From assembly GCF_039536205.1 (NCBI RefSeq), contig NZ_BAAAYL010000001.1, positions 930,001 to 994,000 of the forward strand: a stretch of DNA of 64,000 bases. Reading direction: 5' to 3'. Made by a program: the position numbers and the translations under genes. The first letter of the stretch is position 1. Each line of letters begins with the position of its first letter. The notes beneath the pieces were generated by a model. The model had not been told where the DNA came from. It searched no databases and saw nothing but the letters and a program-made list of their open reading frames with translations. Shown here piece after piece: positions 5,774-24,980 of the stretch. The DNA comes from Streptomyces sannanensis. Its GTDB lineage: Bacteria > Actinomycetota > Actinomycetes > Streptomycetales > Streptomycetaceae.

Positions 5774-6011
5774 TTCACCCGAGGGCGCTACGCTGCCTCA
5801 CTACTGGCGCGCGATCATCATTCGCCTCTGCGCCCGAAGCCATCCGGATCGCCTGACAGACCGTCAGCCAAGTCAGCAAAGGGTCAGCATGAGTACGGCC
5901 ACAGCACCATCCACATGATCAGACGTGCACACCACACGGCAGCCCATACCCGCCCACTGACCAGCAAGCCCGCCGGTCAGCCCTGATCATTTGTTGGATG
6001 GCACAGTTTCA

Positions 6012-6887
6012 ATGACTTGGTTCGAATCGTTCATTCTCGGGCTCGTCCAGGGACTCACGGAGTTCCTGCCCATCTCCTCCAGTGCGCATCTGCGGCTCAC
6101 CGCCGCCTTCGCGGGCTGGGAGGACCCGGGTGCGGCGTTCACCGCCATCACACAGATAGGCACCGAGGCGGCCGTCCTCATCTACTTCCGCAAGGACATC
6201 GGACGGATCATCTACGCCTGGTTCCGTTCGCTCACCGACAAGACGATGCGGGGTGACCACGACGCGCAGATGGGCTGGCTCGTCATCGTGGGCTCGATCC
6301 CTATCGGTCTGCTGGGCGTCACACTCAAGGACCAGATCGAGGGCCCCTTCCGCGATCTGCGCCTGACCGCCACCACACTGATCGTCATGGGCATCGTCCT
6401 CGGCGTGGCCGACCGGCTCGCGGCCCGGGACGAGGCGGGCGGCCGGCACCGTGCGGCCAAGCAGCGCAAGACGCTCCAGGATCTGAGCGTCAAGGACGGC
6501 CTGATCTTCGGAATCTGCCAGGCGATGGCCCTGGTCCCGGGCGTTTCCCGCTCGGGAGCCACGATCAGCGGTGGTCTGCTGATGGGCTACACCCGCGAGT
6601 CGGCGGCCCGCTACTCCTTCCTGCTCGCCATCCCGGCGGTGCTGGCGTCCGGCGTCTTCGAACTCAAGGACGCGACCGAGGGCGGCCATGTCGCCTGGGG
6701 GCCGACGATCTTCGCCACGATCATCGCGTTCGGTGTCGGATATGCCGTCATTGCCTGGTTCATGAAGTTCATCACCACCAAGAGCTTCATGCCGTTCGTC
6801 TACTACCGGATCGCGCTGGGCATCCTGCTGTACATCCTGGTCGGCGCGGACGTGCTGAGCCCGCACGCGGGCGAGTCCGCGGGCTGA
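6012..6887 (+). CDS. uppP: undecaprenyl-diphosphate phosphatase
   Basis: 291 residues. The enzyme (UppP/BacA) removes a phosphate from undecaprenyl diphosphate at the membrane, recycling the carrier for peptidoglycan synthesis and giving bacitracin tolerance. Family motifs are clear: GLVQGLTEFLPISSSAHL near the N-terminus (catalytic Glu and Ser cluster) and PGVSRSGAT at residues 176-184, with about eight hydrophobic segments. I take the ATG at 6012 (MTWFES); the TTG further upstream has no support. The last 44 codons lie in a 136-bp block that recurs at 12483-12618 with one difference, so the 3' end of this gene borders an inserted or duplicated segment. Confidence 0.93.
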   Translation: MTWFESFILGLVQGLTEFLPISSSAHLRLTAAFAGWEDPGAAFTAITQIGTEAAVLIYFRKDIGRIIYAWFRSLTDKTMRGDHDAQMGWLVIVGSIPIGLLGVTLKDQIEGPFRDLRLTATTLIVMGIVLGVADRLAARDEAGGRHRAAKQRKTLQDLSVKDGLIFGICQAMALVPGVSRSGATISGGLLMGYTRESAARYSFLLAIPAVLASGVFELKDATEGGHVAWGPTIFATIIAFGVGYAVIAWFMKFITTKSFMPFVYYRIALGILLYILVGADVLSPHAGESAG

Positions 6888-6891
6888 TGCG
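6756..6891 (+). repeat. 136-bp direct repeat, copy 1 (3' end of uppP)
   Basis: This copy is inside the intact uppP gene and runs 4 bp past its stop codon. It matches 12483-12618 at 135 of 136 positions. The one difference is T at 6838 versus G at 12565, which would change Leu to Arg. The two copies bracket about 5.6 kb of accessory genes. Confidence 0.95.
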
Positions 6892-7362
6892 CTAGCGGAA
6901 ACTAGAGGGAGCTAGAGGCGATTCGAGGGTACTCCCCTCGATCATCTCCCAGTTGTCTCCCAGTCGATCAAGAGGCGGGGCGGGGTACACCACCTGGGGG
7001 GTGGAATAGATACCCCGCCCCGGCCTCTTCGCCCCTGACGGGTCGCTGTCCAGGCGGGTGCCGGCAGGGCGAATCGACGACATCCCGCCATTGACCAGCG
7101 GATGCGGCAGCGGGATCTCCCTCGGCGCAGCCGTGGACCGGTTGCGCCGAGGTCTTCAGATGTGAATGCGCCTCTGGCATACCCGCAGATGCGGGTGGCA
7201 GGGAGACGCCCCCTTCAAGATCACAAAAAGCCTCAAAACTGCTGCTGACTTATGATCACGGTGGCCCGAGCGTTGCTCGGGTGCCCGCCCCTGATCAGCT
7301 GCAGTGGATCCTCGACGCCCGTCGAGCCCTCGGCATCCGCGCCGGGCCGTGATTCGGCCGGC
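6892..7362. other. left flank of the island, no recognised gene
   Basis: 471 bp between uppP and the NUDIX gene. It contains the long hairpin at 6970-7029 and otherwise only weak open frames. A short plus-strand stretch near 7260-7352 (reading ...QLQWILDARRALGIRAG then stop) looks like the tail of some protein, but I cannot name it. Confidence 0.5.
6970..7029. terminator. long 18-bp-arm hairpin just inside the island
   Basis: AAGAGGC+GGGGCGGGGTA (6970-6987) pairs with TACCCCGCCCC+GCCTCTT (7011-7029) with one bulged G at 7022. The 23-nt loop contains a second small stem (CCACC/GGTGG). It could be a bidirectional terminator for uppP and the convergent NUDIX-terminated operon, or a structural site of the island. 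Confidence 0.5.
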
Positions 7363-7803
7363 TCAGGCCGGCGTCGTCAGCCGGTCCGCGAGGAGGAGCG
7401 CCAGCGGTCCGCCCTGGAGGAGGAACCGCCCCGCCGTGATTGCGGCGATGGCATCCTGCATCGGCCACCACATCAGCTTGAACTCCTCCTCGGTGGGCGC
7501 CAGCTCCTGCGGCCCGAGGGTCAGGTCGCGGGCCTCGAAGAGGTGAACGCGGGCAGTCGTTCCAGCGGTGATCGCGTAGGAGCCAAGAGAGCGCCAGTTC
7601 GCCGCGGTGATCCCGGCTTCCTCGCGGAGCTCCCGCCGCGCGGTCTCTTCCGGGGTCTCGCCCTCCTCCTGGCGTCCTCCGGGGAGGAACAGGTAGTCGC
7701 CACCGTGCTGGGGGAACGGCGCGGTCAGCAAGGCGACCAGGCCGTTGGAGTCGCGGGCGACGATGACGGCCGCGTCCCGTGTGGGCAGGTGCGTGTTGGT
7801 CAT
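7363..7803 (-). CDS. NUDIX hydrolase
   Basis: 146 residues. The Nudix box is complete: GGRQEEGETPEETARRELREEAG reads as Gx5Ex7REUxEEx(G) at about residues 42-64. Such enzymes hydrolyse nucleoside diphosphates linked to another moiety. It is the last gene of the minus-strand island operon, 14 bp after the metalloenzyme gene, so it may act on a nucleotide or nucleotide-sugar made by its neighbours. The start is ATG at 7803. Confidence 0.85.
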   Translation of the reverse strand: MTNTHLPTRDAAVIVARDSNGLVALLTAPFPQHGGDYLFLPGGRQEEGETPEETARRELREEAGITAANWRSLGSYAITAGTTARVHLFEARDLTLGPQELAPTEEEFKLMWWPMQDAIAAITAGRFLLQGGPLALLLADRLTTPA

Positions 7804-7817
7804 GCCCGGAGCCTAGG

Positions 7818-8621
7818 TCAGGGCGAGAGCTCCATACAGGCGAACGGCACGGTCGTCACTGCTGGGTGGACAATCCCACGCCCGTAGTACCCGTCCTCCC
7901 CGAAGGCGTCGCCGTGGTCGGCGCACATGATGACCAACCACCTCTTGATGCTGGTCAGTCCGGTGACCAGGTCGCCCAGGTGCTCGTCGGCGTAGGCGAG
8001 GGCGGCGGCCTGGGACTGCCAGGAGTCGGAACTCTCGCCGAGGTAGTGGCCGTGGGGGACGTGCGCGGCCGAGACGTTGACGAACAGGAAGAGCGGCCTG
8101 TCCTCCCGGGCCTGGGCGACGTCGAGGGCGTGCTCGACCTGGTACCGGGTGGAGTCCGGCTCGGGCGAGCAGAACTCCGGCCGCCAGAAATCCTCGTCGA
8201 ACATGTCCGGGAGGACCGACCCGAGCGGCGTCTCCCGGGAGAAGTAGGTCACGCCACCGATGCACACCGTGCGGTAGCCGTGCTGGCCGAGGCCGACGAG
8301 GAGGTTCGGGGCGTTGAAAACGAACGTGCGCGGGTCGACGGTCTTGAAGGCCGGCGGTCGGCACTCCCACAGTCGCGGCGGCTGTACGGGCTGCGGAAGT
8401 TTGGGGAGGAAGCCGGAGAAGAATGCCATGTGGGCGGGGAGCGTGAAGGTTCCGGGCGTCCGACGCTCCTCCCACTGCCCGCCTGGCAGAAGGCCAGCGA
8501 GCCGGGGTGTCTGGCCAGCATGCATGGCCGCCCTAGCGACGTCGTAGCGCAGGGAGTCCAGCGTGACGAACAGGATGTTCGTGCCGGTCCTGATGATCTC
8601 CGCAGCGTCGATCACGGTCAT
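7818..8621 (-). CDS. sulfatase/alkaline-phosphatase-superfamily metalloenzyme
   Basis: 267 residues, shorter than classical sulfatases. The N-terminal metal-binding strand NILFVTLDSLRYD and the TFTLPAHMAFFSG motif (about residues 58-70) align with the nucleophile region of the superfamily. The nucleophile position is Thr, as in phosphatase or phosphotransferase members, and not the Cys/Ser of formylglycine sulfatases. The C-terminal ADHGDAFGEDGYYGRGIVH supplies the second metal site. I infer a phospho- or sulfo-ester hydrolase or transferase. Its ATG overlaps the stop of the gene before it by 4 bp, so the two are translationally coupled. Confidence 0.7.
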   Translation of the reverse strand: MTVIDAAEIIRTGTNILFVTLDSLRYDVARAAMHAGQTPRLAGLLPGGQWEERRTPGTFTLPAHMAFFSGFLPKLPQPVQPPRLWECRPPAFKTVDPRTFVFNAPNLLVGLGQHGYRTVCIGGVTYFSRETPLGSVLPDMFDEDFWRPEFCSPEPDSTRYQVEHALDVAQAREDRPLFLFVNVSAAHVPHGHYLGESSDSWQSQAAALAYADEHLGDLVTGLTSIKRWLVIMCADHGDAFGEDGYYGRGIVHPAVTTVPFACMELSP

Positions 8622-9115
8622 ACTTCCGCAGTGGCGAAGTAGTGGGCGAGGTCGGGCCGGTGGATGACGCGGCCCCGGGAGTGGTCGTTGACGGGGATGG
8701 GCACCTTGTCGCGGGCAATCAGGTCGCAGATCCGTTCCAGCCCAGCTCCCTCTCGGATCTCGGCCCCGTCCGAGGCGAACAGACGGATGGTCACCTCGGC
8801 ACCGGCGCTGCTGATCAAGGTGCCCGGGACCTGAAGCGTGCGGATCGCGTAGGCGAGGAGATCTTGCCCGCCCTCACCGATGACCGAGACAGTCGCCGCG
8901 AAGTGCTGGCAGTTGATCGCGCCGCGGTTGAACAGGCCGGCGTACTGCTTGGCCAGCTCGGTGCCGTCATGGACCAGGGCAACGCCGTGGGAGCGGGTGG
9001 TCAGGATGAGGCAGGAGCCGACCCACCAGGCGACAGCAGGGTGGATCTCGCCGGGGTGACGGCCGTGGATCCGGTCCTCGGCGAAGACGATGGAGAGGTC
9101 AACGGGATTGAGCAC
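8618..9115 (-). CDS. short protein, possibly related to phosphomannomutase domain I
   Basis: 165 residues. Function not established. The order VALVHDGTELAKQYAGLFNRGA, LLAYAIRTLQVPGTLISSAG, VTIRLFASDGAEI recalls domain I of alpha-D-phosphohexomutases (metal-binding, then catalytic Ser loop, then sugar-binding part). The usual catalytic TASHNP loop is replaced by ISSAGAEVT, and domains II-IV are absent. If the similarity is real, this is a stand-alone, probably non-mutase derivative. It overlaps the kinase gene by 17 bp and the metalloenzyme gene by 4 bp, so it is firmly part of the operon. Confidence 0.5.
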   Translation of the reverse strand: MLNPVDLSIVFAEDRIHGRHPGEIHPAVAWWVGSCLILTTRSHGVALVHDGTELAKQYAGLFNRGAINCQHFAATVSVIGEGGQDLLAYAIRTLQVPGTLISSAGAEVTIRLFASDGAEIREGAGLERICDLIARDKVPIPVNDHSRGRVIHRPDLAHYFATAEV

Positions 9116-9743
9116 GGATCTCCTCCACGCGCTTGACGATGATGTCGGCCAGGTCGTCCGGGCTCCGGCCGTCCGTGGGGAGCACGACCGCGCTGGGGTC
9201 GGCCAAGGCCACGCCCTCGAAATTGGCCCGCAGGTGGCAGAGGCGGCCAGGGACGTCGAACAGCTCGGTGTCGTCCGCCTTCACGTCCGTCTTGGTCCCC
9301 ATGCGCTCTTGCAGCGACTGATCGGAACTGACGAGGTAGAACGTGGCATCGGGCGCCAGGAGGTACGGGCGGAACGGCGCGATGAGCAACTTCACCTGGT
9401 CCAGGTCGACCCGGTTGACGGCGGCGTGGCAGGCCATGACTGAGGAGACGTACCGGTCCGCGATGACCGGCCCGTCGGCCAAGGCCTCGCGGATGACGTC
9501 GGAGGCATGCAGAAGGCCGGACAGATAGAAGGCGAATTGCGGCAGCGGCCGGAGCTGGCCATTGACCGCGGGGGACAGGTCGTTGTGCGGCTTGGGGAGA
9601 GTGTGGATCGTCGCGGCGCCGAGCCGCTTGGCCAAGACGCGGGTCAGCGTGGACTTGCCGACGCCTGAGACACCCTCCAGGACGACGAACGGCCCTCCAC
9701 GGCGTTCCGCCCCGGGCGCATACGGGGCGCTCAGCGGGTTCAC
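9099..9743 (-). CDS. thymidylate-kinase-like P-loop kinase
   Basis: 214 residues from the GTG at 9743, which overlaps the stop of the radical SAM gene (GTGA). The Walker A motif is EGVSGVGKSTLT (about residues 24-35), and a DRYVSSVMA segment corresponds to the dTMP-kinase DR(Y/W)xxS motif. The lid region is Lys/Arg-poor compared with housekeeping Tmk. This is a dTMP-kinase-family enzyme likely acting on a nucleotide or a phosphorylated small molecule of the island pathway; the housekeeping tmk should be elsewhere. The longer open frame upstream (to 9935) overlaps the radical SAM gene out of frame and is not the start. Confidence 0.75.
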   Translation of the reverse strand: MNPLSAPYAPGAERRGGPFVVLEGVSGVGKSTLTRVLAKRLGAATIHTLPKPHNDLSPAVNGQLRPLPQFAFYLSGLLHASDVIREALADGPVIADRYVSSVMACHAAVNRVDLDQVKLLIAPFRPYLLAPDATFYLVSSDQSLQERMGTKTDVKADDTELFDVPGRLCHLRANFEGVALADPSAVVLPTDGRSPDDLADIIVKRVEEIRAQSR

Positions 9744-10642
9744 AGGACGCCCTCGGTGAAGGCAGAGACGTGCTGGGCCACGGCCGCGGGGATCCTCTCC
9801 GGCTCGGCCAGCATCGGCAGGATGTCCATGCGCAGGTCCTCCCTGAGCAGGCAGGGCTGGAGTCCCCCGGAGTGGTCCAGGCGCAGGGCCCAGAAGCCCT
9901 CGATGCACTTGGCCCGCAGGGGGCAAGTGCCGCACTGGCCGACACGGTGGCGACCCAGCTCGCGGTGGATGACATCGATCTCGACGCCGTCAACGCGGAA
10001 GATCCGCCGCCCCTGGCCAACACCGGATACCTCGATCTCCTCCTGGCTGGTCAGAGTGCGCAGGTAGTCGACGATGCTCTGCGCGCCGACCGCGGAGGAC
10101 TTCCGGTCAGCGTTGAAGTCGGTATCGACCAGCTCGATGAACTGGATCGGCATCCGGCGGTCGAGGGCGAAGGTGAGGATGTCACGGAGTTCGTGCTCGT
10201 TCTCGCGCTGGATCAGCGTGTTCAGCTCTACCCGCTCGAACATCTCGCGGGCTGCCTCGATGCCGTCCAAGACGGTCACGATGCTCGAGCGTGTCTGGGC
10301 GATGGCCCGGAAGGAGTCGTCGGAGAAGTAGTGGAGGGAGACCTTCACCTTGTCCAGGCCGGTCGTGGCCAGCCAGTCCTGATGGGTGCGGACTAGCAGC
10401 CCGTTCGTGATCAGTGTGTAGGACACGTCGGGGCCGTGATCGGGAAGCTGGGTGAGCACCGGCTGGGCAAGTTTCGACGTCAACGGCTCGCCGCCGGTGA
10501 AGTACACCCGCTTGAGGCCGGCGCCGATCAGCTCACGCAGGACATTGACGTAGTCGTCGGCGGTCAGTTCGCGAGCGCGGGGCCTTCCCGTCCGCACGCC
10601 CAGCCGACGCTGACGGCACCCCGGTCGAGCCGCACGTTGCAC
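9740..10642 (-). pseudogene. MoaA-like radical SAM gene lacking its N-terminal Fe-S motif
   Basis: The body of a radical SAM protein is intact: TADDYVNVLRELIGAG, the SAM-binding YFTGGEPL motif, and a C-terminal cluster region CGTCPLRAKC...LQPCL like the second Fe-S site of MoaA. The CxxxCxxC motif that should come just before RARELTADD is missing. In its place the upstream sequence is the reading frame of the small Cys-rich protein (10564-10716), which runs into this gene in another frame. The open frame from the GTG at 10642 starts with unrelated Arg-rich residues. I infer a deletion that fused two genes and removed the radical SAM N-terminus, so the product should be inactive unless the sequence is in error. 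Confidence 0.7.
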
Positions 10643-10716
10643 CAGACACAGTTCCAGCCCTTGGCCTGACCGAACATGAGGTCCTCGGCGGCGGGAATGG
10701 TGCGGGCGGCGGTCAC
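10564..10716 (-). CDS. small CxWC protein B, probably 3'-truncated
   Basis: 50 residues from a GTG that overlaps the stop of the upstream small gene (GTGA at 10716-10713). It reads VTAARTIPAAEDLMF...WNCVWCNVRLDRG and shares the CVWCxVxLDxG motif with small protein A. The motif suggests a zinc-ribbon half site. After RLDRGAVSVGWACGREG it runs into the radical SAM coding region in a different frame and stops, so its natural C-terminus is probably lost in the same deletion. Confidence 0.55.
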   Translation of the reverse strand: MTAARTIPAAEDLMFGQAKGWNCVWCNVRLDRGAVSVGWACGREGPALAN

Positions 10717-10904
10717 GACTGGGCCTCAGCGTGCTGCGGGCAGGCGCGGGGAAACCAGCGGACGCCAGCAGTGCGGTCCAGCCGCGTGCCGAGGTCGATG
10801 GCGGTGCCGTTGTCGAGTATGACGCCGCACCACACGCAGGCCCGACCGTGCCGCTGATGCTGCGACAGCGTCCCTACATCAGGCAGTTCTGCGACTGGCA
10901 TCAC
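10713..10904 (-). CDS. small CxWC protein A
   Basis: 63 residues (MMPVAELPDVG...). It contains RACVWCGVILDNGTAIDLG, then WFPRACPQH. The CxxC plus a later C/H pair suggests a small zinc-binding fold. Proteins of this shape occur beside XRE/TPR regulators in streptomycetes, but I know no function. It overlaps small protein B by 4 bp and lies about 160 bp after the XRE gene on the same strand. Confidence 0.6.
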   Translation of the reverse strand: MMPVAELPDVGTLSQHQRHGRACVWCGVILDNGTAIDLGTRLDRTAGVRWFPRACPQHAEAQS

Positions 10905-11063
10905 GGGCTCCCCGGGCTGCTGAGTGCGGCGCCGGCCAGCCTCTGGCGGGAGTGAGGCCGACGCCGCTGCGTGCCCGTCACGCTATGAGCGCGCACAGTC
11001 GCAGCCCAGTGACGAAACGCACCAGTCGCTCCGTCAATTATTGCGCCAGTGGGGCGTGTTGTC

Positions 11064-12284
11064 CTACATGGCGGGGTCGACTCCCAGCCGCCCCGCGAGC
11101 GCCCGGAGCGGGGTGCTGCGGCGGCGTTCCGCCTCCAGCATCTCCCGCACCGTAGCCGCGGCGAGGGTCTGGTAGCGGATCCACTCGGGCTGGTCTCCCT
11201 CGACCTCGAGGAGCATCTCCAGCGCGCCCTCGCCGTCACCGGTCTGGTATCGGGCCTGTGCCACATCGAGGCGGTACGCCGCGGAGTGCACCGGCCGACT
11301 GATGCTGCCCACGTCGATGGTCCCCGCGACCTCGATGGCGGTCTCGGGCTCGGCGGTGTCGCGCCCAGCGAGGGCGACGTTGACCTGTTGGGTTTTCACG
11401 TCGACGAGAGAGAACGCGCTGCCGTAGGCGCGGACGGGGCCGGAGCGGGTGGCCGCGGTCTCGGCGAGGTTCAGCAGATCCTTCGCCTCAGCGCGCTGAT
11501 CCCGCCGCGCGGCCGGCGTGGCCGCTGCGATCAGCAGGTTGCCGTACACCGCGAGTTGCTTCGGCGTCGCACGCCGCATCGGCGGCTCGAGCGCGTCGGC
11601 TTTCCGTTCCGCCACACGCTGTGCCTGCTCCCACCGTCCCTGACGCAGCAGCACCCAGGAGAGGGTGGAGACGCCCATGCCCTCCATCAGCGGATCGGAC
11701 GCCCGCACTGCGGCGGCAAGTTGCCTCTCGACCGCGGCAAATGCCCAGTCGGGGTGGCCGGCCTGTGTCGCCAGGCACGCCGCCAACTGGTACGCCAGCG
11801 CCAGTTGCCCCCAGACCCGTTCGGCTGCCGACCCCGTGGCGTCGCGGGCGACGGCGTGCCCGTCGCGGAGGAGCAGCGGCAGCGTGCCGGACAGCTCCGA
11901 GTAGCCGCCCTTCCAGTACAGGTCCGTCGCGTCTTTCACCGAACCCACCCACGCATCGGCTGCGGGCGGGTCCTCGATCTGGTCGTCGGCGAGGACGCCG
12001 GGGAGTGCGTTGATGTCCTGGATGGCATCGCGGAGGGCGAGGAGGCCGCCGTCGTCGGACAGGGTTTGGGTCACGGTGGCCTGTCCTAGCAGCCGGTGCA
12101 GCTCGACGTCGAGGGCGCGTGCGAGCGCCCGCAGCGTGGTGATGCGCGCCGAATGGCGCTGGCCCTGCTCGAGTTTGCGGATGGTGTCTACGGAGACACC
12201 TGCCCGCTGGGCCAGTTGCTCTTGGGTGAGGTCGCGAAATTCGCGCAGACACTGGATGCGGTCGCCGATGGTGCGCTGAGTCAT
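11064..12284 (-). CDS. XRE-family regulator with TPR-like C-terminus
   Basis: 406 residues from the ATG at 12284. An N-terminal helix-turn-helix (IGDRIQCLREFRDLTQEQLA then QRAGVSVDTIRKLEQGQR) is followed by an about 330-residue all-helical region rich in Ala/Leu with TPR-like spacing (for example LALAYQLAACLATQAGHPDW). This is the standard Streptomyces sensor-regulator plan, in which the TPR region senses a peptide or small partner. It is divergent from the small ORF at 12387, with a palindrome at 12352-12369 between them, and heads the island operon. It probably controls both directions. Confidence 0.85.
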   Translation of the reverse strand: MTQRTIGDRIQCLREFRDLTQEQLAQRAGVSVDTIRKLEQGQRHSARITTLRALARALDVELHRLLGQATVTQTLSDDGGLLALRDAIQDINALPGVLADDQIEDPPAADAWVGSVKDATDLYWKGGYSELSGTLPLLLRDGHAVARDATGSAAERVWGQLALAYQLAACLATQAGHPDWAFAAVERQLAAAVRASDPLMEGMGVSTLSWVLLRQGRWEQAQRVAERKADALEPPMRRATPKQLAVYGNLLIAAATPAARRDQRAEAKDLLNLAETAATRSGPVRAYGSAFSLVDVKTQQVNVALAGRDTAEPETAIEVAGTIDVGSISRPVHSAAYRLDVAQARYQTGDGEGALEMLLEVEGDQPEWIRYQTLAAATVREMLEAERRRSTPLRALAGRLGVDPAM

Positions 12285-12351
12285 GTGTCGTACCCCCGCC
12301 AGAGGATGTGTCCTCCACGCTACGCCCGACGGCGGGGTGTGTGCACGGGTC

Positions 12352-12380
12352 TGCCACCTGTCGGTGGCAGTCCGTAAGCT
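12352..12380 (+). promoter_or_regulatory. palindromic operator and leaderless-type promoter, copy 1
   Basis: TGCCACC-TGTC-GGTGGCA (12352-12369) is a perfect palindrome with a 4-nt centre. A -10-like TAAGCT (12375-12380) ends 6 nt before the ATG at 12387, which predicts a leaderless mRNA. The same arrangement and spacing recur at 13003-13029. Confidence 0.65.
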
Positions 12381-12386
12381 TGTTCC

Positions 12387-12482
12387 ATGCCCCCTTCTCC
12401 CCCAGGCTCTGGCCGGCTGCTGCCTGCTGCCGAGGTGGCGAACGAGCGGATCCGTGCGCTGGTCGACGCGGCGGGTGGAGTG
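12387..12482 (+). pseudogene. small ORF cut by the uppP repeat
   Basis: From the ATG it reads MPPSPPGSGRLLPAAEVANE then RIRALVDAAGGVW, and from 12483 the frame continues straight into the uppP 3' repeat and stops at 12614. The ANERIRALVD part matches the intact small ORF at 13036. So this copy has lost its C-terminal half (which would read like EEYELLLLEWAAA) at the repeat junction. This pins the recombination point to a few bases. Confidence 0.65.
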
Positions 12483-12618
12483 TGGTTCATGAAGTTCATC
12501 ACCACCAAGAGCTTCATGCCGTTCGTCTACTACCGGATCGCGCTGGGCATCCTGCTGTACATCCGGGTCGGCGCGGACGTGCTGAGCCCGCACGCGGGCG
12601 AGTCCGCGGGCTGATGCG
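12483..12618 (+). repeat. 136-bp direct repeat, copy 2 (orphan uppP 3' end)
   Basis: An orphan copy of the last 44 codons of uppP including its stop, 135/136 identical to 6756-6891. It is fused in frame to the small ORF starting at 12387, but no functional product is expected. It marks the right edge of the island. Confidence 0.95.
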
Positions 12619-12651
12619 TGACCCTTCGGGGTCAGGCACGGTTGTCATGGC

Positions 12652-12852
12652 ATGAAGAAACGAGCCGCCATGGCTTTCCTGACCTTTGCGACCGGCATTG
12701 TGATCGCGGCCGTGTCCCCTCCCGCGCACGCCGAATCGAGTGACGCAGGTCCCACCGTCACCGGCCTGCTGGACTCGGCCGAGGAACTGGGCGAGATCCT
12801 GGATCACAATCACGCCGGGGAATCGGACAGCACCGCGACCGCAACACCCTGA
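12652..12852 (+). CDS. small secreted protein
   Basis: 66 residues. A signal peptide is clear: MKKRAAMAFLTFATGIVI... with a cleavage site after SPPAHA (about residue 25). The mature part of about 40 residues is acidic (GLLDSAEELGEILDHNHAGE) and has no Cys. Function unknown. It begins 34 bp after the uppP repeat and is closed by a strong terminator, so it may be the original downstream neighbour of uppP. Confidence 0.65.
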   Translation: MKKRAAMAFLTFATGIVIAAVSPPAHAESSDAGPTVTGLLDSAEELGEILDHNHAGESDSTATATP

Positions 12853-12870
12853 CAAGCACTTGTCCACCGA

Positions 12871-12907
12871 ACGGCCCCGCGTTCCGGCAACGGAAACGCG
12901 GGGCCGT
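12871..12907 (+). terminator. strong intrinsic-type hairpin
   Basis: ACGGCCCCGCGTT (12871-12883) pairs perfectly with AACGCGGGGCCGT (12895-12907), with an inner CCG-GCAA-CGG stem and one bulged A. It lies 18 bp after the small secreted protein gene. Confidence 0.8.
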
Positions 12908-13002
12908 TCCGTTGTGGGGAAGGCCGGATTCCGGACACCGTGTGCAATCCCGCGGTTCATGCACGTGACGGACACCACCGTCGAACCGCCGTTTATTGGC
13001 GA

Positions 13003-13029
13003 CCACTTGTCAGTGGCGGCCCGTAGGGT
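13003..13029 (+). promoter_or_regulatory. palindromic operator and leaderless-type promoter, copy 2
   Basis: CCACT-TGTC-AGTGG (13003-13016) has the same TGTC centre as copy 1, and the distance from palindrome to start codon is identical. The -10-like TAGGGT (13024-13029) again ends 6 nt before the ATG (13036). I infer one regulator, probably the XRE protein at 11064-12284 or a relative, for both sites. Confidence 0.65.
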
Positions 13030-13035
13030 TGTCGT

Positions 13036-13212
13036 ATGTCCACTCCTCCTGCGACCCCTGGTTCCGTACGGCCCGATGCAGCACTGGCGAACGAGCGCAT
13101 CCGCGCGCTCGTCGACGAGCGCGCGGACGAGGCATGGCCCGCGGAGGAGTACGAACTGCTGCTTCTCGAGTGGGCCGCCGCGACGCAGGGATGCGTCACC
13201 GCGGCGGCCTGA
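13036..13212 (+). CDS. small acidic protein, intact relative of the cut ORF at 12387
   Basis: 58 residues: MSTPPATPGSVRPDAALANE, RIRALVDERADEAWPAEEYE, LLLLEWAAATQGCVTAAA. It shares ANERIRALVD and the operator-promoter layout with the truncated ORF at 12387. It looks like one helical hairpin. Function unknown; small ORFs controlled by XRE/TPR proteins are often regulators or signalling partners. Leaderless translation is predicted, since no ribosome site is present. Confidence 0.6.
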   Translation: MSTPPATPGSVRPDAALANERIRALVDERADEAWPAEEYELLLLEWAAATQGCVTAAA

Positions 13213-13238
13213 CCAGCCGGCCCCTCCCCGATCCGCCG

Positions 13239-15539
13239 CTATTCGTTGTGCAACACCTCGGCGATGGTGAGCCGCGCCGCGGACCGTGCCGGAACCAGGG
13301 CGCCCAGGACGGCGATCGTGACGCCCGCCAGGGCCAGAGCGGCCAGCTGCGGCGCATGCCAGACGTCCTTCATGGACTCCGGGAACACGACCACTGCGGC
13401 ATGGTCCACGATCAGCCTGTGGGCGGCGATTCCGATCGGAATCCCGAACAGCCCGCCGACCGCGCCCAGCCCCGCCACTGACGTCACCGTCATCACCACG
13501 ACCTGGCGCGGCGTCATTCCGATCGACTTGAGCATGCCCAGGTCACGGCGGCGCTCCCGGGTGTTCAGCAGGACGGTGTTGAAGACACCGAGCGCCGCCA
13601 CGACGGTCAGAAGGACGGTGAACACCGTCGAGAAGCTCACGACCGCGACGGTGGCGGTGCTGCCGGAGCCGACCTGCGAGGGGTGAAGGCCCGAATCCAC
13701 GGCCTTGACCGCCTTGAGGTACGCCTGGGTGTCGGCGCCGCGGGCGAGCCGGACCGAGTAGTAGGCGGCCCGTGCGTCCGGGTCGAGTTCGGTCAGGGTC
13801 TGCCAGTCGGCGTTCATGCCCCGCGCGTCGCCGTCCATGACCTCACCGACGATGGTGACGCGCTTCTGCCGGCCGTTCAGCTGCAGGGTGATCCGGTCGC
13901 CGACCGAGAGCCCGTGCTGCTTCAGGAACGACGGCCCGGCCGCCGCCTCGCCCGCTCCGGCCGGCCAGTGTCCCTTGACCATCCGGGAAGTGGCGTTCGG
14001 AAGATCCCCGCGGTAGAAGGCGGCGAACCTGGTCTGGCTGTACCCGGCGAGACGTACCTGGACGACCGTCTGGGCGATCACCCTTTCCGCGCCGGGAAGG
14101 GACCGCAGCCTTGCTTCGATCTGACGGTCGTTCAGCCTCGGGGCGGGGCCGCCGTTCTCGGAGTTGCCGGGCTGTACCTCGATCCGGGGGCCCATGTCGC
14201 CCGGGTCCGCGTACGCGACCATCGTGCTGGTCAGACCGGTCGTCAGCGTCACGGTGGTGACCCCGAGGACGATGGCCGCCATGGTCAGCAGCGCGCGGCC
14301 AGGGCGGGCGAAGGGCTGACCCAGGCCCAGACTGACGGGGCGTGGCAGCCGGGTGCCGCTGAGCCTGCGCTGGACGCGCAGCCCACGCCCGGTCCGCGGT
14401 GCGCTGCCCGCGGTGATCGCCCGGGCCGCGGACAGCCGGTGGGCGCGCAGCGCCGGAATCAGCGCGGCGAGGACCACGAGGGCAGGCATGCCCAGCAGGC
14501 AGACGACGGACACCCAGGGGCTGATGCCGATGGTCGCCGTGCCGGTCTCGATCGCGGAGAAGGCGACCCGGAGGACCGGTTCGGCCGCCACATTGCCGAG
14601 GAGCGTGCCGAGGACGCAGCCGACGACCGCGGGAACGGAGACCATCGTGAGATAGACCGCGACCACCTGGTTCGGCGTGAAACCCAGGGCCTTGAGCACA
14701 CCGATGTGCCGGTATCCGGAGACGACCGCCCCGCTGACCACGTTCCCGACGATCAGCACGGACACCACCAGACCGAGGACACCGAACGCCATCATGATCG
14801 GGAGATAGGAATCGGCCTGTGCGGAGAAGGCCTGCTTGAGGGTGAGGTAGGACTGCGCGCTGGTCAGCGAGCCCTTGGGCAGCCCCGCGGTGGCCTCGGC
14901 CAGGCCGTCGCGGACCTGCCGGTCCGTCGAGGACGCCGTGAAGCGATAGAGCATCTGGGAGGAGGCCGGGTGCAGCGCGGTCATCTGCTCGGGTGAGACC
15001 CAGGCGCCGGCGGACCTGCTCATGCTGGTGGCGAAGCCGACGACGGTGAGCGTCGGGGCTCCGCGCGGGTTGACCTTCGTGCCCAGGAGGCTCGAAAACG
15101 GGGTGCCCGGGAGCGGCCAGTTGACGACGATCTCGCCGGGCTTGGTGGCCCAGTGCCCCATCACCAGACGGATGCGGTCCACCGGACCGCCCGGATCGGC
15201 CCGGCCCACCACGGTCAGGGGGCCCGGCGGCATCCCGAGCCAGTCCTCGGGGATGTCGAGCACGGCCTGGCCGAAGGGCCCCGCGGCGGCCTGGACACCG
15301 GGCCGCCGGGCGGTCCGCGCCAGTTGCGCGTCCGAGGCCTTGTCCCGGTCGAAGGTCGCCACCGCGTGCGCGCCGCGCTGCCGGCCGAAAGCCTTGTCGA
15401 AGGGCGCCGAGGTCGCGCCCAGCACTCCCAGCGCGAGCAGGAAGGTCATGGTCGAGCACAGCACGACGAACCCGATGACGAAGGTCTGGAGCCGACGGCG
15501 CTTCACCGCCGCACGGGAGGCCGTCCACACGGCGCTCAT
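13239..15539 (-). CDS. FtsX/MacB-type ABC transporter permease
   Basis: 766 residues. The architecture is an N-terminal membrane segment, a large extracytoplasmic domain, three helices (about 255-370), a second outer domain and a final three-helix FtsX block near the C-terminus (TVFTVLLTVVAALGVFNTVLL ... GLFGIPIGIA). The duplicated FtsX plan is typical of lipoprotein or peptide exporters and antimicrobial-peptide resistance permeases. It overlaps the ATPase stop by 4 bp (ATGA), so the pair forms one exporter. Confidence 0.88.
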   Translation of the reverse strand: MSAVWTASRAAVKRRRLQTFVIGFVVLCSTMTFLLALGVLGATSAPFDKAFGRQRGAHAVATFDRDKASDAQLARTARRPGVQAAAGPFGQAVLDIPEDWLGMPPGPLTVVGRADPGGPVDRIRLVMGHWATKPGEIVVNWPLPGTPFSSLLGTKVNPRGAPTLTVVGFATSMSRSAGAWVSPEQMTALHPASSQMLYRFTASSTDRQVRDGLAEATAGLPKGSLTSAQSYLTLKQAFSAQADSYLPIMMAFGVLGLVVSVLIVGNVVSGAVVSGYRHIGVLKALGFTPNQVVAVYLTMVSVPAVVGCVLGTLLGNVAAEPVLRVAFSAIETGTATIGISPWVSVVCLLGMPALVVLAALIPALRAHRLSAARAITAGSAPRTGRGLRVQRRLSGTRLPRPVSLGLGQPFARPGRALLTMAAIVLGVTTVTLTTGLTSTMVAYADPGDMGPRIEVQPGNSENGGPAPRLNDRQIEARLRSLPGAERVIAQTVVQVRLAGYSQTRFAAFYRGDLPNATSRMVKGHWPAGAGEAAAGPSFLKQHGLSVGDRITLQLNGRQKRVTIVGEVMDGDARGMNADWQTLTELDPDARAAYYSVRLARGADTQAYLKAVKAVDSGLHPSQVGSGSTATVAVVSFSTVFTVLLTVVAALGVFNTVLLNTRERRRDLGMLKSIGMTPRQVVVMTVTSVAGLGAVGGLFGIPIGIAAHRLIVDHAAVVVFPESMKDVWHAPQLAALALAGVTIAVLGALVPARSAARLTIAEVLHNE

Positions 15540-16246
15540 GCGGTCGGCTCCAGCGTGCTCTCGCGGGCCACCCGGCCGTCGGCGATCTCGATCAGGCGGC
15601 CGGCGCAGCGGCTGGCGAGGTGCGGGTCATGGGTGACGATCAGCAGGGTCTGGCCGATCTGGTTGAGGTCGATCAGCAGGTCCATCACCTGCTCGCCCGA
15701 ACGGCTGTCCAGGGCGCCGGTCGGTTCGTCGGCCAGGAGCAGGGCCGGACGGTTCATCAGAGCCCTGGCGACGGCGACCCGCTGCCGCTCCCCGCCGCTC
15801 AGCGCCGCCGGATAGGCGTTCCTGCGGTCGGCGATGCCGAGTTCGTCGAAGAGTTCCAGCGCGCGGTGGCGCGCCTGCCGGGCCGGGGTGCCGGTCAGCT
15901 GGGCGGCCAGGGCGGCATTGTCCAGCGCCGGCAGGTCGTCGATGAGGTTGAAGAACTGGAAGATCATGCCGATGTGCCGCCGCCGGAACAGGGCCAGTCC
16001 GGTCTCGTTCAGTGTGCCCAGGTCCTGACCGGCCACCCGCACCCTCCCCGAGGTCGGACGGTCCAGGCCGGCGACCATGTTGAGCAGAGTGGACTTGCCG
16101 CACCCGGATGGCCCCATCACGGCGACCGCTTCCCCTGCGCGGATCTCCAGCGACACGCCGTCCAGGGCCTTCGTGTCGCCGTACTCCTTGTGCACGCCGT
16201 CGAGTCGTACGACGACCTGCCCTGTGAGGTCGTGATCAGTAGTCAT
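15536..16246 (-). CDS. ABC transporter ATPase (LolD/MacB type)
   Basis: 236 residues. Walker A GPSGCGKST, Q-loop FQFFNLIDDL, signature LSGGERQRVAVARAL, Walker B LLLADEPTGALD and the H-loop VTHD are all present. It energises the permease encoded immediately downstream. It is divergent from a histidine kinase/response regulator pair, the usual arrangement where the two-component system controls the exporter. Confidence 0.92.
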   Translation of the reverse strand: MTTDHDLTGQVVVRLDGVHKEYGDTKALDGVSLEIRAGEAVAVMGPSGCGKSTLLNMVAGLDRPTSGRVRVAGQDLGTLNETGLALFRRRHIGMIFQFFNLIDDLPALDNAALAAQLTGTPARQARHRALELFDELGIADRRNAYPAALSGGERQRVAVARALMNRPALLLADEPTGALDSRSGEQVMDLLIDLNQIGQTLLIVTHDPHLASRCAGRLIEIADGRVARESTLEPTA

Positions 16247-16289
16247 GACACGAACCTAGAAGCGGTACGGCGGGTGGGGCGTCCCGCCC

Positions 16290-16327
16290 GGGATGTATCC
16301 GTCCGGGCCCGTCATCCTGGGGATGTA
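16290..16327. promoter_or_regulatory. direct repeats in the ABC/kinase divergent promoter
   Basis: GGGATGTA occurs at 16290-16297 and again at 16320-16327, 30 bp apart (about three helical turns), in the 138-bp gap between the ABC operon and the kinase gene. This is a plausible binding site for the NarL-type regulator encoded at 17254. Confidence 0.35.
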
Positions 16328-16384
16328 CGGCCGTGGATCCGCAGACTGATGCTCAGCGCGGCGCGGAGCTGCGAGGATGGTCCG

Positions 16385-17257
16385 GTGTGGGGATCCGGGG
16401 TGGACTGGCTGATCATCGCCTTGGCCATGGCGTGTGCGACCGCCGGGTGGCTGGGCACGGAGCTCGTACGGACACGGCGGCTGCACCGGACCGCCATCGG
16501 GGAGCGCGGCTGGCTGCTGGAGCGGGAGCGTGAGAGCGCGGCGCGGACTGCGGTCGACGCCGAACGGGCCAGGATCGCGGGGGAATTGCACGACATCGTC
16601 AGCCACAACGTGAGCCTCATGGTGGTCCAGGCCGGAGCCGCCCGCGAGGTGCTGGCCACGATGCCCGAGGAGGCCGCGACGGCGATGAGCGCCGTCGAGG
16701 CCGCCGGACGGAACGCGATGACCGAGCTGCGGCATCTGCTCGGCCTGCTCGCACCCTCGCAGAGCGGCGAGGACGAGCCGCACGAGACGGACCTGTCGCC
16801 GCAGCCGAGCCTGAGCCGGCTCGGTCCGCTGATCGACCGCATCGCGTTCGCCGGTCTGCCCGTGGAGGTACGGATCGACGGGGAGCCGCGGCGGCTGCCG
16901 GCCGGTATCGATGTGACGGCCTATCGGATCGTGCAGGAGGCACTGACCAATGCGCTCAAACACGGGGACGGGGCGAAGGCCGAGGTGACGGTGCGTTATA
17001 CCGACCATTATCTGCGGGTCGAGGTGCTGAACAGCGGGCCGAGCGTACTGTCGGGCGGCGGCTCCGGGTCCGGGGAACGCCCCGCGCCGGGGCGGGCCGC
17101 CTCGGAACTGGCCGCTCCGGTACGGGCCGACGGAGCGGGACGCGGGCTCCTCGGGCTGCGTGAGCGGGTCGCCGTCTACGGCGGCGACCTGGACGCCCGG
17201 CGCCGCCTCGGTGGCGGCTACCGGGTCCGGGCCCGCATCCCCCTGGACCGGCCATGA
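16385..17257 (+). CDS. NarL-type sensor histidine kinase
   Basis: About 290 residues from the GTG at 16385, which has GAGG upstream; an ATG at 16349 is the alternative. One membrane segment (about residues 5-25) gives a minimal sensor. The HisKA_3 box ELHDIVSHNVS has the phospho-accepting His at about residue 69. The HATPase region runs from AYRIVQEALTNALKHG through GRGLLGLRERVAVYGG. With no extracytoplasmic sensor domain, it probably reads membrane state or the ABC exporter. It overlaps the regulator gene by 4 bp. Confidence 0.88.
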   Translation: MWGSGVDWLIIALAMACATAGWLGTELVRTRRLHRTAIGERGWLLERERESAARTAVDAERARIAGELHDIVSHNVSLMVVQAGAAREVLATMPEEAATAMSAVEAAGRNAMTELRHLLGLLAPSQSGEDEPHETDLSPQPSLSRLGPLIDRIAFAGLPVEVRIDGEPRRLPAGIDVTAYRIVQEALTNALKHGDGAKAEVTVRYTDHYLRVEVLNSGPSVLSGGGSGSGERPAPGRAASELAAPVRADGAGRGLLGLRERVAVYGGDLDARRRLGGGYRVRARIPLDRP

Positions 17258-18003
17258 CGCCCACCGAGCCCGCCCCCCGCGTGCTGATCGCGGACGACCA
17301 GGAGCTGGTCCGTGTCGGCTTCCGCCTGATCCTGACCGCGCGTGGGATCAACGTGGTGGGCGAGGCCGCCGACGGGAACGAGGCCGTGGCCGCGGCGCGC
17401 AGGCTGCAGCCCGATGTCGTACTGATGGACATCCGCATGCCCGCCATGGACGGCCTGGAGGCCGCCCGGCAGGTGCTCGCGCAGACCCCGGACTGCCGGG
17501 TGATCATGCTGACCACCTTCGACCTCGACCACTACGTCTACGCCGCCCTCGCCGCCGGCGTCAGCGGCTTCCTCCTCAAGGACGTCACCCCCGCGCACCT
17601 CGCCGCCGCCGTGCGCCTGGTCAACACCGGTGACGCGCTACTCTCGCCCTCGATCACGCGGCGTCTGGTGGAGCGTTTCGCGCACACCGCCGGAGGCGAG
17701 AGCCGGCACGGCGCTCCCGGCGACCACAGGCCGGTCCGGCACCTCCGGATTCCGCCGGTCCATCGCGACCTCGCCGCCCTGACGCCCCGGGAGCTGGAGG
17801 TCCTGACGCTCATGGGCCACGGCCTGTCCAACACCGAACTGGCCCGCGAACTGACGCTCAGCGAAGCGACCGTGAAGACCCACGTGGCCCGCATCTTCGC
17901 CAAGCTCGCCCTCCGGGACCGGGCGCAGGCCGTGGTGCTGGCCTACGAGACAGGGCTCGTCTCCCCGGGCGACTCCACTGGATCCGCCGACGCTCACTCG
18001 TAG
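17254..18003 (+). CDS. NarL/LuxR-type response regulator
   Basis: 249 residues. The receiver has the acidic pair DD near residue 14, the phospho-acceptor Asp59 (VLMDIRMPAMDG) and a conserved Thr/Lys end. The LuxR-type HTH is at the C-terminus (LTPRELEVLTLMGHG... EATVKTHVARIFAKL). The linker is longer than usual (about 30 extra residues, Arg/His-rich). It is the partner of the kinase at 16385 and probably regulates the divergent ABC exporter. Confidence 0.92.
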   Translation: MTPTEPAPRVLIADDQELVRVGFRLILTARGINVVGEAADGNEAVAAARRLQPDVVLMDIRMPAMDGLEAARQVLAQTPDCRVIMLTTFDLDHYVYAALAAGVSGFLLKDVTPAHLAAAVRLVNTGDALLSPSITRRLVERFAHTAGGESRHGAPGDHRPVRHLRIPPVHRDLAALTPRELEVLTLMGHGLSNTELARELTLSEATVKTHVARIFAKLALRDRAQAVVLAYETGLVSPGDSTGSADAHS

Positions 18004-18138
18004 GCGGCAGCCACTTGGAGAGCCCGGGCGAGAAAGGACCACCACGGCCCGCGGTTTCATCCCCAGGCCGGAGCCGGTGGCAGCGGCCAGTTGGGCGGGG
18101 CCGGAACAGGACCGTCGGCAGTGAGCGAAGCTGACGAA

Positions 18139-19044
18139 TCAGCCGCGCGCCAAGTTCATGAGGAACCGAGTTTCCGCGTCGTCCCGCCGCGCGCAGATCC
18201 TGGGTACGGCGTTGAGCACGGAGGTAGCCCGGCACCAGCCCAGGACACGATCGGGAGACTGGCCGGGGACCAGCGTCGCCAGCTGCTCGATCCTCTGCTC
18301 CAGCTGCGCGAGGTCCGCTACTCCCTCCAGCACCCAGTCCACGGCGTCGAAGTCCGGATCTCCCCATGCGGGCCGCGGGTCGATCGCCACCATACGGTGC
18401 CCCGGACCGGACAGCACATTGGCCGGGTGAAGATCACCGTGTACAAGCCCCACCGGACCGCTGTCGGCCAGCTCCAAGGCCAGCGCTCGGGCTCGGTCGA
18501 GAACCATCGAGTCGAGCAGTCCGCTCGCCTCGGACGCAGCCAGCCTGCGGTCCGTCAGGTCGAAGAGGAAGTCGATCCGGTGCGAGAGCGGTCGCAACAC
18601 CGTGCGCTGCCCTCGCACGGGAGATGATGCCCTCAGGTCTCGCAGCAGAGCCGCGACATCGGGCAACCGCCAGGCAAGTTGTTTCACCGGAACTCCCGGC
18701 TCCACGCTCTCCAGCAGCAGGGCTCCCGCGGCGAGATCCTGCGCCAGCAGACGAACAACCGATGGCGTTCCCGCCCAGGCCTGCAGCGCTTCGGCTTCCT
18801 CGGCAGCGATCCCCGTGTCCGGCGTGAGCTTCAGCCACACAAAGGAGCCATGGTCACGTCGCAGGCAGCGGAACACCCGCGAGGTGCCTCCTCCGCCCGC
18901 CTCGACAACGTCCAGACCCCATCGGACGGCGAGTTCACCCACCAGCGTCGGCAACTCGTCGCACCAAGCGAGCACCTCGGGCCCGAACCGAACAACGAGC
19001 CGCTCGCGGACCTCTGGTGCGACGAGGGTCAAATCTCTCAACAC
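18139..19044 (-). CDS. aminoglycoside/hydroxyurea-type small-molecule kinase
   Basis: 301 residues from a GTG at 19044 with GAGGAGC upstream. The APH fold is visible: FVWLKLTPD (ATP-binding Lys), catalytic loop VHGDLHPANVL (about residues 200-210) and metal-binding IDPRPAWGDPDFDAVDW. It most resembles the APH(6)/hydroxyurea phosphotransferase family, which inactivates streptomycin by 6-phosphorylation. Whether this copy confers resistance or phosphorylates another metabolite cannot be told from sequence. Confidence 0.75.
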   Translation of the reverse strand: MLRDLTLVAPEVRERLVVRFGPEVLAWCDELPTLVGELAVRWGLDVVEAGGGGTSRVFRCLRRDHGSFVWLKLTPDTGIAAEEAEALQAWAGTPSVVRLLAQDLAAGALLLESVEPGVPVKQLAWRLPDVAALLRDLRASSPVRGQRTVLRPLSHRIDFLFDLTDRRLAASEASGLLDSMVLDRARALALELADSGPVGLVHGDLHPANVLSGPGHRMVAIDPRPAWGDPDFDAVDWVLEGVADLAQLEQRIEQLATLVPGQSPDRVLGWCRATSVLNAVPRICARRDDAETRFLMNLARG

Positions 19045-19254
19045 AAGCAGCGCTCCTCAGCTCGGTCAGGAAAAATCCGCTGGCCCCATCACTCAACCAA
19101 TCGGATACGCTTCCCGCACGGGGGACCGTCCTCACAGCCTCGATCACCTCATCATCTGTCGCCGGCTCAGCGTCCCAAGTCAGTGCAGTTCCCGGCTATC
19201 GCTTTAACGGGAACGCAGTTGCTCCGCCTGGACGCCGCTGACAGGGTCTTGGCC

Positions 19255-19362
19255 ATGCCTGCCTTCTCCGCGCATGACGGAACCAAGCTCGCCTACCACG
19301 TGTCTGGGGACGGCGCTCCTGTGGTTTGCCTTCCCGGCGGGCCGATGCACGACGGCCCAGCA
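19255..19362 (+). pseudogene. alpha/beta hydrolase N-terminal remnant
   Basis: The ATG at 19255 starts MPAFSAHDGTKLAYHVSGDG then APVVCLPGGPMHDGPA, the first two strands and oxyanion-hole HGGP-type loop of proline-iminopeptidase-like hydrolases. After about 36 residues the similarity ends in Arg/Gly/Pro-rich sequence. The nucleophile elbow and the rest are gone, so it is a 5' remnant. Confidence 0.6.
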
Positions 19363-19422
19363 TTGGTCAGCGGTCCAGCCGGGCGGCCCCGCGACACCGC
19401 TCGGCGGACTGGCATGTCGCCT

Positions 19423-20285
19423 CTACGGCAGGTCGTAGCTCAGGAAGTAGTGGGTCCCGATGTGACTCGTCGGAAATCCGAACTGCACGTCCGTGAGCAT
19501 GCGGAAGAGGAACTCACCCAAGCCGCAGTCAAATCGTTCCCACTCACCGAAGTCGCGCTGGACGAGAACGGGCCAGTCGTCGGGGTCGGCCGCACCCGTC
19601 TGCCAGACGAAGTCGATCTCTTCTTCCGTCGTTCCCCAGCGCAGCAGCCCCCGGGGGCCGGGTAGGCGGCGTAGGGGTGCCACAGACCCGTGGTGTGCTT
19701 CACGTCGTTCTCGACCCACTTCACGAGATCCATCCCCACGGCGCCGGGAACGAGGAGGTCGACATACTCGTCGAAGCTGCCCTCGCCGAACAGATCGACG
19801 ATCTCCTTGTAGTCGCTCGGCAGCGCCGTGCCCAGGGCGGCCTCGGCGGCGGACCAGTCGACGGCCGGCCGGGGTCCCGGTTCCCAGCCGGTGAGGATGC
19901 GCAGCTTCTCCGCCCACGACGCCCCCTCCGGGAATCCGACGGCGGCGGGGTCCTCGCGATGGCCGACCACGACGACCGTCCGGCCTCCCTCCGGGGAGGC
20001 GACCCGGCCGCACCCGATCCAGTGGGACCGGTAGGCCCACCCCCGCATCTCCAGCAGCTCCTCCCCGAAGGGCTCGACGAGCGGCAGTCCGGTGCGCTCG
20101 GTGAGCGAAGGATCGGTGAAACCGCCCGCGACGAGATTGCGGTGCCGACCCACCCGCCGGCTGATTTCGGCGACGAGCTCCTGCAAGCCGGTGCCATCCG
20201 GCGCGTCGAAGGTTGTCGGCGCATCACGGCGCGAGCTCCAGTCGAGCATCTTCCAGACAGCGGAAAGGAGTTCGGAGTGTTCCAT
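19423..20285 (-). pseudogene. SUKH (SMI1/KNR4)-family protein with a frameshift
   Basis: The frame from the ATG at 20285 covers the N-terminal two thirds, including the SUKH-like core ALGTALPSDYKEIVDLFGEG followed by SFDEYVDLLVPG. After AAYPAPGG the frame turns into Ser/Arg-rich noise. The continuation (LLRWGTTEEEIDFVWQTGA ... IGTHYFLSYDLP) is in another frame ending at 19423. The shift is at a run of five C and five G (19648-19657), so a real one-base loss or a sequencing error are both possible. SUKH proteins often act as immunity proteins to contact-dependent or secreted toxins. Confidence 0.7.
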
Positions 20286-20290
20286 GGACC

Positions 20291-21880: not shown

Positions 21881-21907
21881 CGGATCCTCACTTCACAGGA
21901 CCGCGCT

Positions 21908-24696: not shown

Positions 24697-24827
24697 ATCC
24701 TTAATATCCGCTTCCTTACGGCTGTTTGCGCGACCGGGGGAGTCCGGCGCCCGGGCCGTCGAGTTGCCGGGGCAGCGCGCGTTCCGTGTTACTGAGAGAG
24801 ACCAGGACATGACGCACGGAGGTGCAA

Positions 24828-24980
24828 GTGGACTTGGTCCATGTCCGGTCGGTGAGCCCGCCGGACCTCACCGACCGGGCTGTGGCGCTGCTCGCCGGCA
24901 ACCCGAAGTGCCGGCGGTCCGTCCGGCGGTGGGCCGGTGCCCGCCGCCAGTGCACCGTGCAGCAGAACCGACCGTTGTAG
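24828..24980 (+). pseudogene. DUF389 N-terminal remnant
   Basis: After an RBS-like GGAGG, GTG at 24828 starts VDLVHVRSVSPPDLTDRAVA then LLAGNP, which matches the start of DUF389 membrane proteins in streptomycetes. The reading frame then becomes Arg-rich and stops after 50 residues with no membrane segment, so only the 5' end remains. Confidence 0.5.

Follow-up and report, generated by a model that had tools for sequence, protein, structure and literature searches.

Decayed integrative and conjugative elements (ICEs) or integrative and mobilizable elements (IMEs) with both attachment (att) sites, attL and attR, kept are described as cis-mobilizable elements (CIMEs) (PMC5704250, PMC7563491). 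Integration at protein-coding genes with reconstitution of the target is known as well (PMC12884075, PMC7563491), and Streptomyces phage Samy integrates into a protein-coding gene, a radical S-adenosylmethionine (SAM) gene, by means of a serine integrase (PMC12924846). Here, a 5.7-kb island behind uppP, the gene of undecaprenyl-diphosphatase, was analysed in a stretch of 64,000 nucleotides from Streptomyces sannanensis (contig NZ_BAAAYL010000001.1, positions 930,001 to 994,000), which is referred to as the window and to which coordinates refer. The island very probably goes back to an element that was integrated site-specifically and has since decayed.

In part like a CIME (PMC5704250, PMC7563491), the island carries att-like repeats at both ends, retains cargo, is without integrase genes and, among the proteins tested, without transfer genes, and is located at a gene 3' end for which integrase users are known. 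It differs from a CIME in that its ancestor would have been at least partly phage-like in look and in that its right site, minus the arm, may not be a working att site, while both cores are retained. As in the gene-reconstituting elements of PMC12884075, a replacement gene end keeps the target whole. The target itself is different from rpmG, rpsI, fda and rplL, which are named for composite islands in PMC7563491; uppP has 0 occurrences in the text of PMC12884075 (supplementary tables being outside this count) and goes unmentioned in the text portion used for phage Samy (PMC12924846), which is like the uppP elements in its kind of target and differs in its serine integrase and its radical-SAM gene. 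Integrated elements rebuilding protein-coding targets are already known, and uppP as such a target appears new: no literature report of it as an attachment site was found, with the qualification that supplementary tables of island surveys may list uppP. The initial annotation, in which uppP was described as an unusual target, has to be corrected in that insertion at uppP is recurrent in the genus and no one-off.

The duplicated 3' end of uppP

A direct repeat of 136 nt (6756-6891 and 12483-12618; 99%, spacing 5727) was obtained by the repeat search of the window. The block consists of the final 44 codons of uppP (stop codon counted in) plus 4 bp and starts at residue 249 of 291 (numbering from the ATG at 6012). 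By alignment, 135 of the 136 positions are identical between the copies, and the sole mismatch (T6838/G12565) converts CTG to CGG, and thereby Leu to Arg, in the right copy. In a search of the complete own genome, the left and right block gave E-values of 9.4e-66 and 1.5e-64, respectively, and the sole further match was one of 24 bases at 3.92 Mb (E 9e-4), which was set aside as chance, so that chance was excluded for the repeat. An in-frame reading of the right copy exists solely at the end of a chimeric open reading frame (ORF) of 75 aa at 12387-12614, the head of which is related to the ORF at 13036-13212 (115-nt family, 70%). The initial annotation was thus confirmed in its duplicated block 5.7 kb away with one mismatch, in its intact uppP using the left copy, in its right copy as an orphan fused to a cut small ORF and in the Leu to Arg change in that orphan. 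The features at the two ends are as follows.

5991..6887, + strand: ORF of uppP (undecaprenyl-diphosphatase), the intact target gene, ATG at 6012 (BacA/UppP, Pfam E 3e-85)
6756..6891, + strand: left block copy, attL side, end of the working uppP (repeat search, alignment)
6941..6962, + strand: arm-like repeat of the left side, ATCATCTCCCAGTTGTCTCCCA, with a pair of TCTCCCA spaced 11 bp apart (motif search)
12387..12482, + strand: 5' portion of a small gene truncated at the right copy, with which it forms an in-frame fusion
12483..12618, + strand: right block copy, orphan, attR side, without an arm repeat before it (repeat search, alignment)
13036..13212, + strand: small gene found behind uppP in relatives, marking the original downstream side

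Insertions at uppP in relatives and their candidate integrase

The block was searched in 150 genomes, made up of the own one plus 149 relatives (90 from the same genus), and at least six of them contained a further copy on the contig and strand of the first (G023, G032, G065, G074, G075 and G090; G and L numbers denote genomes and loci, respectively). Among the named loci, namely the best 80 of a longer list of uppP loci, nearly all from named Streptomyces, seven had more than one match; a second copy was present inside the 10-kb flank of uppP in four (L192, L202, L216 and L223), and the other three were set aside (L204 and L228 with 22-26 nt, L205 with a 54-nt partial match overlapping the gene's own match). 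For the search with the right-end query, only the matches to positions 140-276 were counted, from among the matches listed; those to its first 142 bases, which recur widely and look like another repeat (unchecked), were not used.

In all 17 left/right pairs compared, the homology between the copies starts at most 2 nt from the same Trp codon (TGGTTCATGAAG), and merely 7-16 of the 40 bases ahead of the core are identical. In 15 pairs the two copies agree better over their first 50 bases than over the other 82, and in two pairs the agreement is equal. A fixed start is expected of a recombination core, and a freely varying remainder of the block is expected of an element-borne replacement gene end. 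Excluded from the pairs were G065, G075 and L192, in which the right copy is reduced to its 3' part, and G156, G219, G226 and the tandem copies of G285 and G349, which are unpaired or nested; the right copies of these last five genomes have the same start place, except G349b, with a gap there. By these comparisons the uppP 3' end is a recurrent insertion site, at which elements bring their own copy, of about 132 bp, of the uppP 3' end. In G285, G349 and L202, tandem elements were observed behind uppP, a right copy being directly followed by another left-end signature.

A candidate integrase was located at the right ends. A 455-aa ORF of G090 and G343 stops 2 bases before the right copy, and as a query it matched at E up to 1e-20 in 35 genomes of a larger set of 295, which was also used for the operon search below. 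Eight full-length integrases (about 455 aa, identity of at least 61%, query included) came from G090, G343, G197, G177, G023, G190, G154 and G233. All of them abut a uppP copy, at a distance of 2-5 bases except in G233, where the stop codon falls inside the block, and none of 16 other integrase loci examined (identity of at most 52%) has a uppP copy; the fragments of G279 and G328 were left out of this examination. The search for integrases beside uppP 3' repeats, which had been proposed as a check, thus gave eight genomes among the 295, and the proposal that an element integrated into the 3' end of the gene and rebuilt it is supported by the same block around a prophage and islands in relatives, together with the cognate integrase gene that ends at the right copy of these eight. 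Remains of the integrase gene before the right copy were detected by translated search in G226, G339, G349, L202, G074, G156, G219 and G318 (weakly in L223) and by DNA alignment in G032, G152 and G285 (weakly in L216). In intact uppP elements, a predicted tyrosine-type integrase gene occupies the right end with its stop codon at the core. Two other candidates were rejected: a Tn554-like recombinase pair beside uppP of G074 (L036:9581-10798), as among 30 relative loci only that of G074 itself is at a uppP copy, and the ORFs flagged in five loci by an integrase motif scan of the 80 uppP loci, which look like wrong-frame readings.

No Pfam hit was obtained for two tested integrases, nor any NCBIfam or PDB-sequence hit for one tested; PHROGs assigned three members as integrase (E 9e-19 to 1e-36). 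Four phage records, two of them Gordonia phages, match the integrase at 25-28%, and no plasmid record matches it. In alignment A1 (11 sequences), Arg208, Arg365-His366, His388 and Tyr397 are invariant, and Arg208, Arg365, His388 and Tyr397 are presumably the catalytic residues of a tyrosine recombinase. At the first position of the HxxR motif, where His is usual, Tyr is present in the eight uppP integrases and L272, and His in L244 and L269. A structure model (pLDDT, the per-residue confidence, 74.7; pTM, the predicted template-modelling score, 0.58) was submitted to Foldseek, by which the Tn1549 integrase was the best match (E 1.4e-6), with lambda, XerA and Cre also found, at TM-scores of 0.2-0.5. 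Catalytic residues and a related predicted fold both agree with assignment of the relatives' integrase to the tyrosine-type recombinases.

For the left ends, 22 were selected for looking occupied, and in 17 of them, the window included, at least two TCTCCCA-type repeats follow the uppP stop codon with the first pair always 11 bp apart; the row of G318, counted among the five without a repeat pair, was read from the wrong copy. At least two such heptamers within 200 bp of the uppP stop codon are present in 11 of the 80 named loci. The exact motif ATCATCTCCCANNNNTCTCCCA was found at 19 places in 17 of the 150 genomes, and the reversed control at 0. Seven of the places are behind uppP (window included), six follow sequence like a tRNA 3' end, two are in the last codons of integrase-type genes (L239 and L244), a further one is 286 bp beyond such a gene (L255), and three are unassigned. 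A second arm-like repeat, GCCATCTCCCACTGCTCTCCCA, is located in the final codons of the integrase genes of G090 and G343. From this genomic company, the TCTCCCA-type repeats would be arm-type sites of integrases, and their occurrence at tRNA-like ends suggests related integrases with other targets. ARAGORN recognized a whole tRNA (Pro, CGG) at one of the six tRNA-like places and partial ones at best at the other five. The arm-like motif near tRNA-like 3' ends was noted at L253 and, by eye, at L238, L241, L245, L250 and L251.

A close counterpart is the element of G233, which has 53.5 kb between identical copies (132/132) and carries genes for major head, portal, large terminase, tape measure, endolysin, a DnaB-like helicase and the integrase; because structural phage genes and the integrase are present between the copies, it is assigned as a prophage. 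The window island has the same core and target, with a left end and a regulator gene of the same type, and the G233 prophage differs from it by its 53.5 kb, its intact integrase and its phage structural genes. On its block, arm-like repeat and stub of a prophage-like regulator gene, the left end of the window is assigned to the family of uppP elements. The distances between copies are 54 (G233), 62 (G197), 76 (G154), 88 (G177) and 345 kb (G190), and 272 (G023), 476 (G090) and 480 kb (G343); the wide spacing in G190, G023, G090 and G343 makes these candidates for giant elements, accretion or rearrangement. A conserved chromosomal block is found 1.4-3.3 kb behind the right copy in G233, G197, G177, G154 and G190, in the last of which a small gene like that at 13036-13212 is ahead of it, 223 nt downstream of the right-copy start. 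Several integrase-less elements, G152 and G339 included, keep both ends.

Contents of the island and its surroundings

The remaining features of the island are listed below.

7206..7340, + strand: stub of a small helix-turn-helix (HTH) regulator gene, resembling the first gene of the G233 prophage and the own 6.42-Mb locus
7363..7803, - strand: NUDIX hydrolase (Pfam E 5e-17)
7818..8621, - strand: STM4013-family hydrolase, sulfatase-like (NF038075 E 2.5e-102)
8618..9115, - strand: 165-aa protein with no Pfam family (profile searches)
9099..9755, - strand: thymidylate-kinase-like P-loop kinase (Pfam E 3e-12)
9740..10583, - strand: radical-SAM gene without its N-terminus and hence without the CxxxCxxC motif (MoaA profiles match from position 36-39 only)
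10582..10913, - strand: segment 88.9% identical to the own 6.42-Mb locus, with a broken small CxxC gene and then an ORF at 10713-10904
11064..12284, - strand: HTH (XRE-type) regulator, 406 aa (HTH_3 E 1.7e-12)

The cargo is by all appearance a mosaic with broken joints, made up of an operon with a truncated radical-SAM gene, a regulator module and a cut small gene. The operon (7363-10583) was found, in part or whole, at 69-79% identity in at least 13 of the 295 genomes, and the homology to other operons ends at the joint at about 10583. The homologue in G047 (one neighbourhood) is full-length, with an extra N-terminus of about 60 residues including CNLKCWFC that is missing in the window. Given the truncation of its radical-SAM gene, the operon probably specifies enzymes that as a set no longer work, and the HTH regulator may still be active. 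The regulator stub aligns with the leading regulator gene of the G233 prophage (75% over 7206-7324) and with the own 6.42-Mb locus (80% over 7216-7340). Both genes that are broken in the island, the HTH regulator (80%) and the small CxxC gene (88.9%), are whole at this locus of the own genome (L316). At the right side, the small gene is truncated at 12469-12482, immediately ahead of the core; an integrase-made secondary recombination as the origin of this exact joint was considered and dropped, as a deletion ending in the last 14 nt or so before the core suffices. Locus L223 (Streptomyces sp. A0958) carries, ahead of a broken integrase-like stretch and the right copy, genes for an HTH regulator and a small CxxC protein as well as a complete small gene like the one cut in the window, and this arrangement plausibly represents a middle stage of the proposed decay. 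Another island at uppP (L216:11071-15259; 5.2 kb) was seen by eye to contain two small Cys-rich peptides, an ATP-binding cassette (ABC) transporter and redox-type proteins, and looks like a peptide biosynthesis cluster.

The initial annotation had noticed no integrase between the repeats, and this was borne out: with 13 integrases of the relevant family as queries, no tblastn match better than E 0.05 was obtained in 6892-13300, and no integrase domain was found in the island proteins tested by profile searches. Neither phage structural genes nor transfer genes were found among the tested island proteins by Pfam and NCBIfam (PHROGs were not run on them), and the regulator stub is the only tie of the left end to a prophage. 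A right arm-like repeat was looked for before the right copy and was absent.

The block starting at about 32.03 kb in the window comes after uppP in 67 of the 80 named relatives, within 2 kb in 40 and as near as 35 bp, and an ORF related to that at 13036-13212 is within 1.3 kb behind uppP in 20. By the same search, 13240-31900 has no match behind uppP in any of the 80. The window thus has two non-conserved stretches, the att-bounded island and a further one of about 18.8 kb, and judged from these matches the island is merely the first part of a longer non-conserved stretch reaching about 32 kb. The proposed check for an empty site was answered in favour of insertion: with the conserved block at most 2 kb from uppP in half of the 80 (40), uppP has other sequence behind it at an empty site. 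No uppP repeat was found in 13240-32027, in which an ABC permease, response regulators, a GMC-type oxidoreductase and others were seen by eye.

Proposed decay of the element and alternative explanations

In the reading as a decayed site-specific element, strand exchange would have occurred near the start of the block, by which the 5' part of uppP was joined to the replacement 3' end of the element and uppP was kept whole. The old 3' end would have been displaced rightward to become the present orphan, and the Leu to Arg change in the right copy would have arisen because this orphan is unselected. The remainder would later have been stripped by deletions and recombination, which either spared the operon and the regulator module or introduced them, and the island would now be locked in place, probably as an att-bounded, CIME-like and immobile island at a recurrent site. 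We infer where the crossover lay, that the element brought the left copy, that the orphan is the former gene end, in which order parts were lost, and that the island is immobile. Among the features looked for in a 3'-end insertion by a tyrosine recombinase, the border repeats (135/136), the core shared with the cognate integrase in relatives and the empty site were found, and an integrase inside the element and arm-type sites on both sides (left only) were not.

Several observations weigh against this reading. No integrase remnant is present in the window, by which the ancestor is not assignable to a prophage or an ICE by its integrase. Partial right copies or left ends, or missing arms, occur in G065, G075, L192 and L216, and the exact cut of the small gene at the core may hint at a different mode of origin. 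In G090, G343 and G023, the 11 kb or so behind the right copy gave no conserved block, apart from one 80-nt hit in G090, and the scores of the integrase model and of its matches to known recombinases, as given above, are modest.

For the missing integrase, the initial annotation had offered loss, supply in trans or a recombinational duplication. Loss is likelier than action in trans, as the right arm is missing as well and nothing in the own genome matches the uppP-site integrase at E up to 1e-20. A still mobile, satellite-like island, the copies of which are recombined by the integrase of a co-resident or incoming uppP element, would agree with the near identity of the copies (135/136), the intact left arm-like repeat and the integrase-less elements that retain both ends in several relatives (G152 and G339 among others); against the lack of an arm repeat before the right copy and of an integrase match in the own genome, it is considered unlikely. 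An ordinary recombination or duplication without an integrase, such as unequal crossing-over carrying the uppP end, could account for the joints at about 10583 and 12482, which resemble illegitimate recombination, and for the absence of the integrase. However, the same homology start in 17 of 17 pairs despite different cargo and flanks, the integrase gene at the right copy of intact elements and the arm-bearing left end and core shared by the window with integrase-bearing elements make it highly improbable. Finally, an assembly artefact is the least credible of all and hardly needs consideration, although a single assembly without reads is the basis, as the copies differ by one base and have distinct flanks, the genome is in 5 contigs, and the same arrangement is present in other, separate genomes.

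Beyond the probable decayed element of the window, a wider joint reading is put forward tentatively, as possible rather than probable. In this reading, uppP would serve throughout the genus as the landing site of integrases from a clade that escapes Pfam recognition (Tyr in HxxR), and the site would be used both by prophages and by integrase-less islands moved in trans. Such islands would keep two arm-bearing ends, the right one left over from the 3' end of the integrase gene. In that case the 3' end of uppP would be a cargo dock shared in Streptomyces, and the window island a cargo that is fixed, minus its right arm.

By this analysis, a lone repeat is turned into a chromosomal attachment site that is defined by its core, its arm-like repeats and a candidate integrase and that is in use across many Streptomyces genomes. 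Streptomyces vectors are mostly based on serine integrases (PMC5311408), and the uppP site with its candidate integrase represents a testable new integration system for the genus. It also shows a cell-wall gene hosting repeated insertions yet staying whole.

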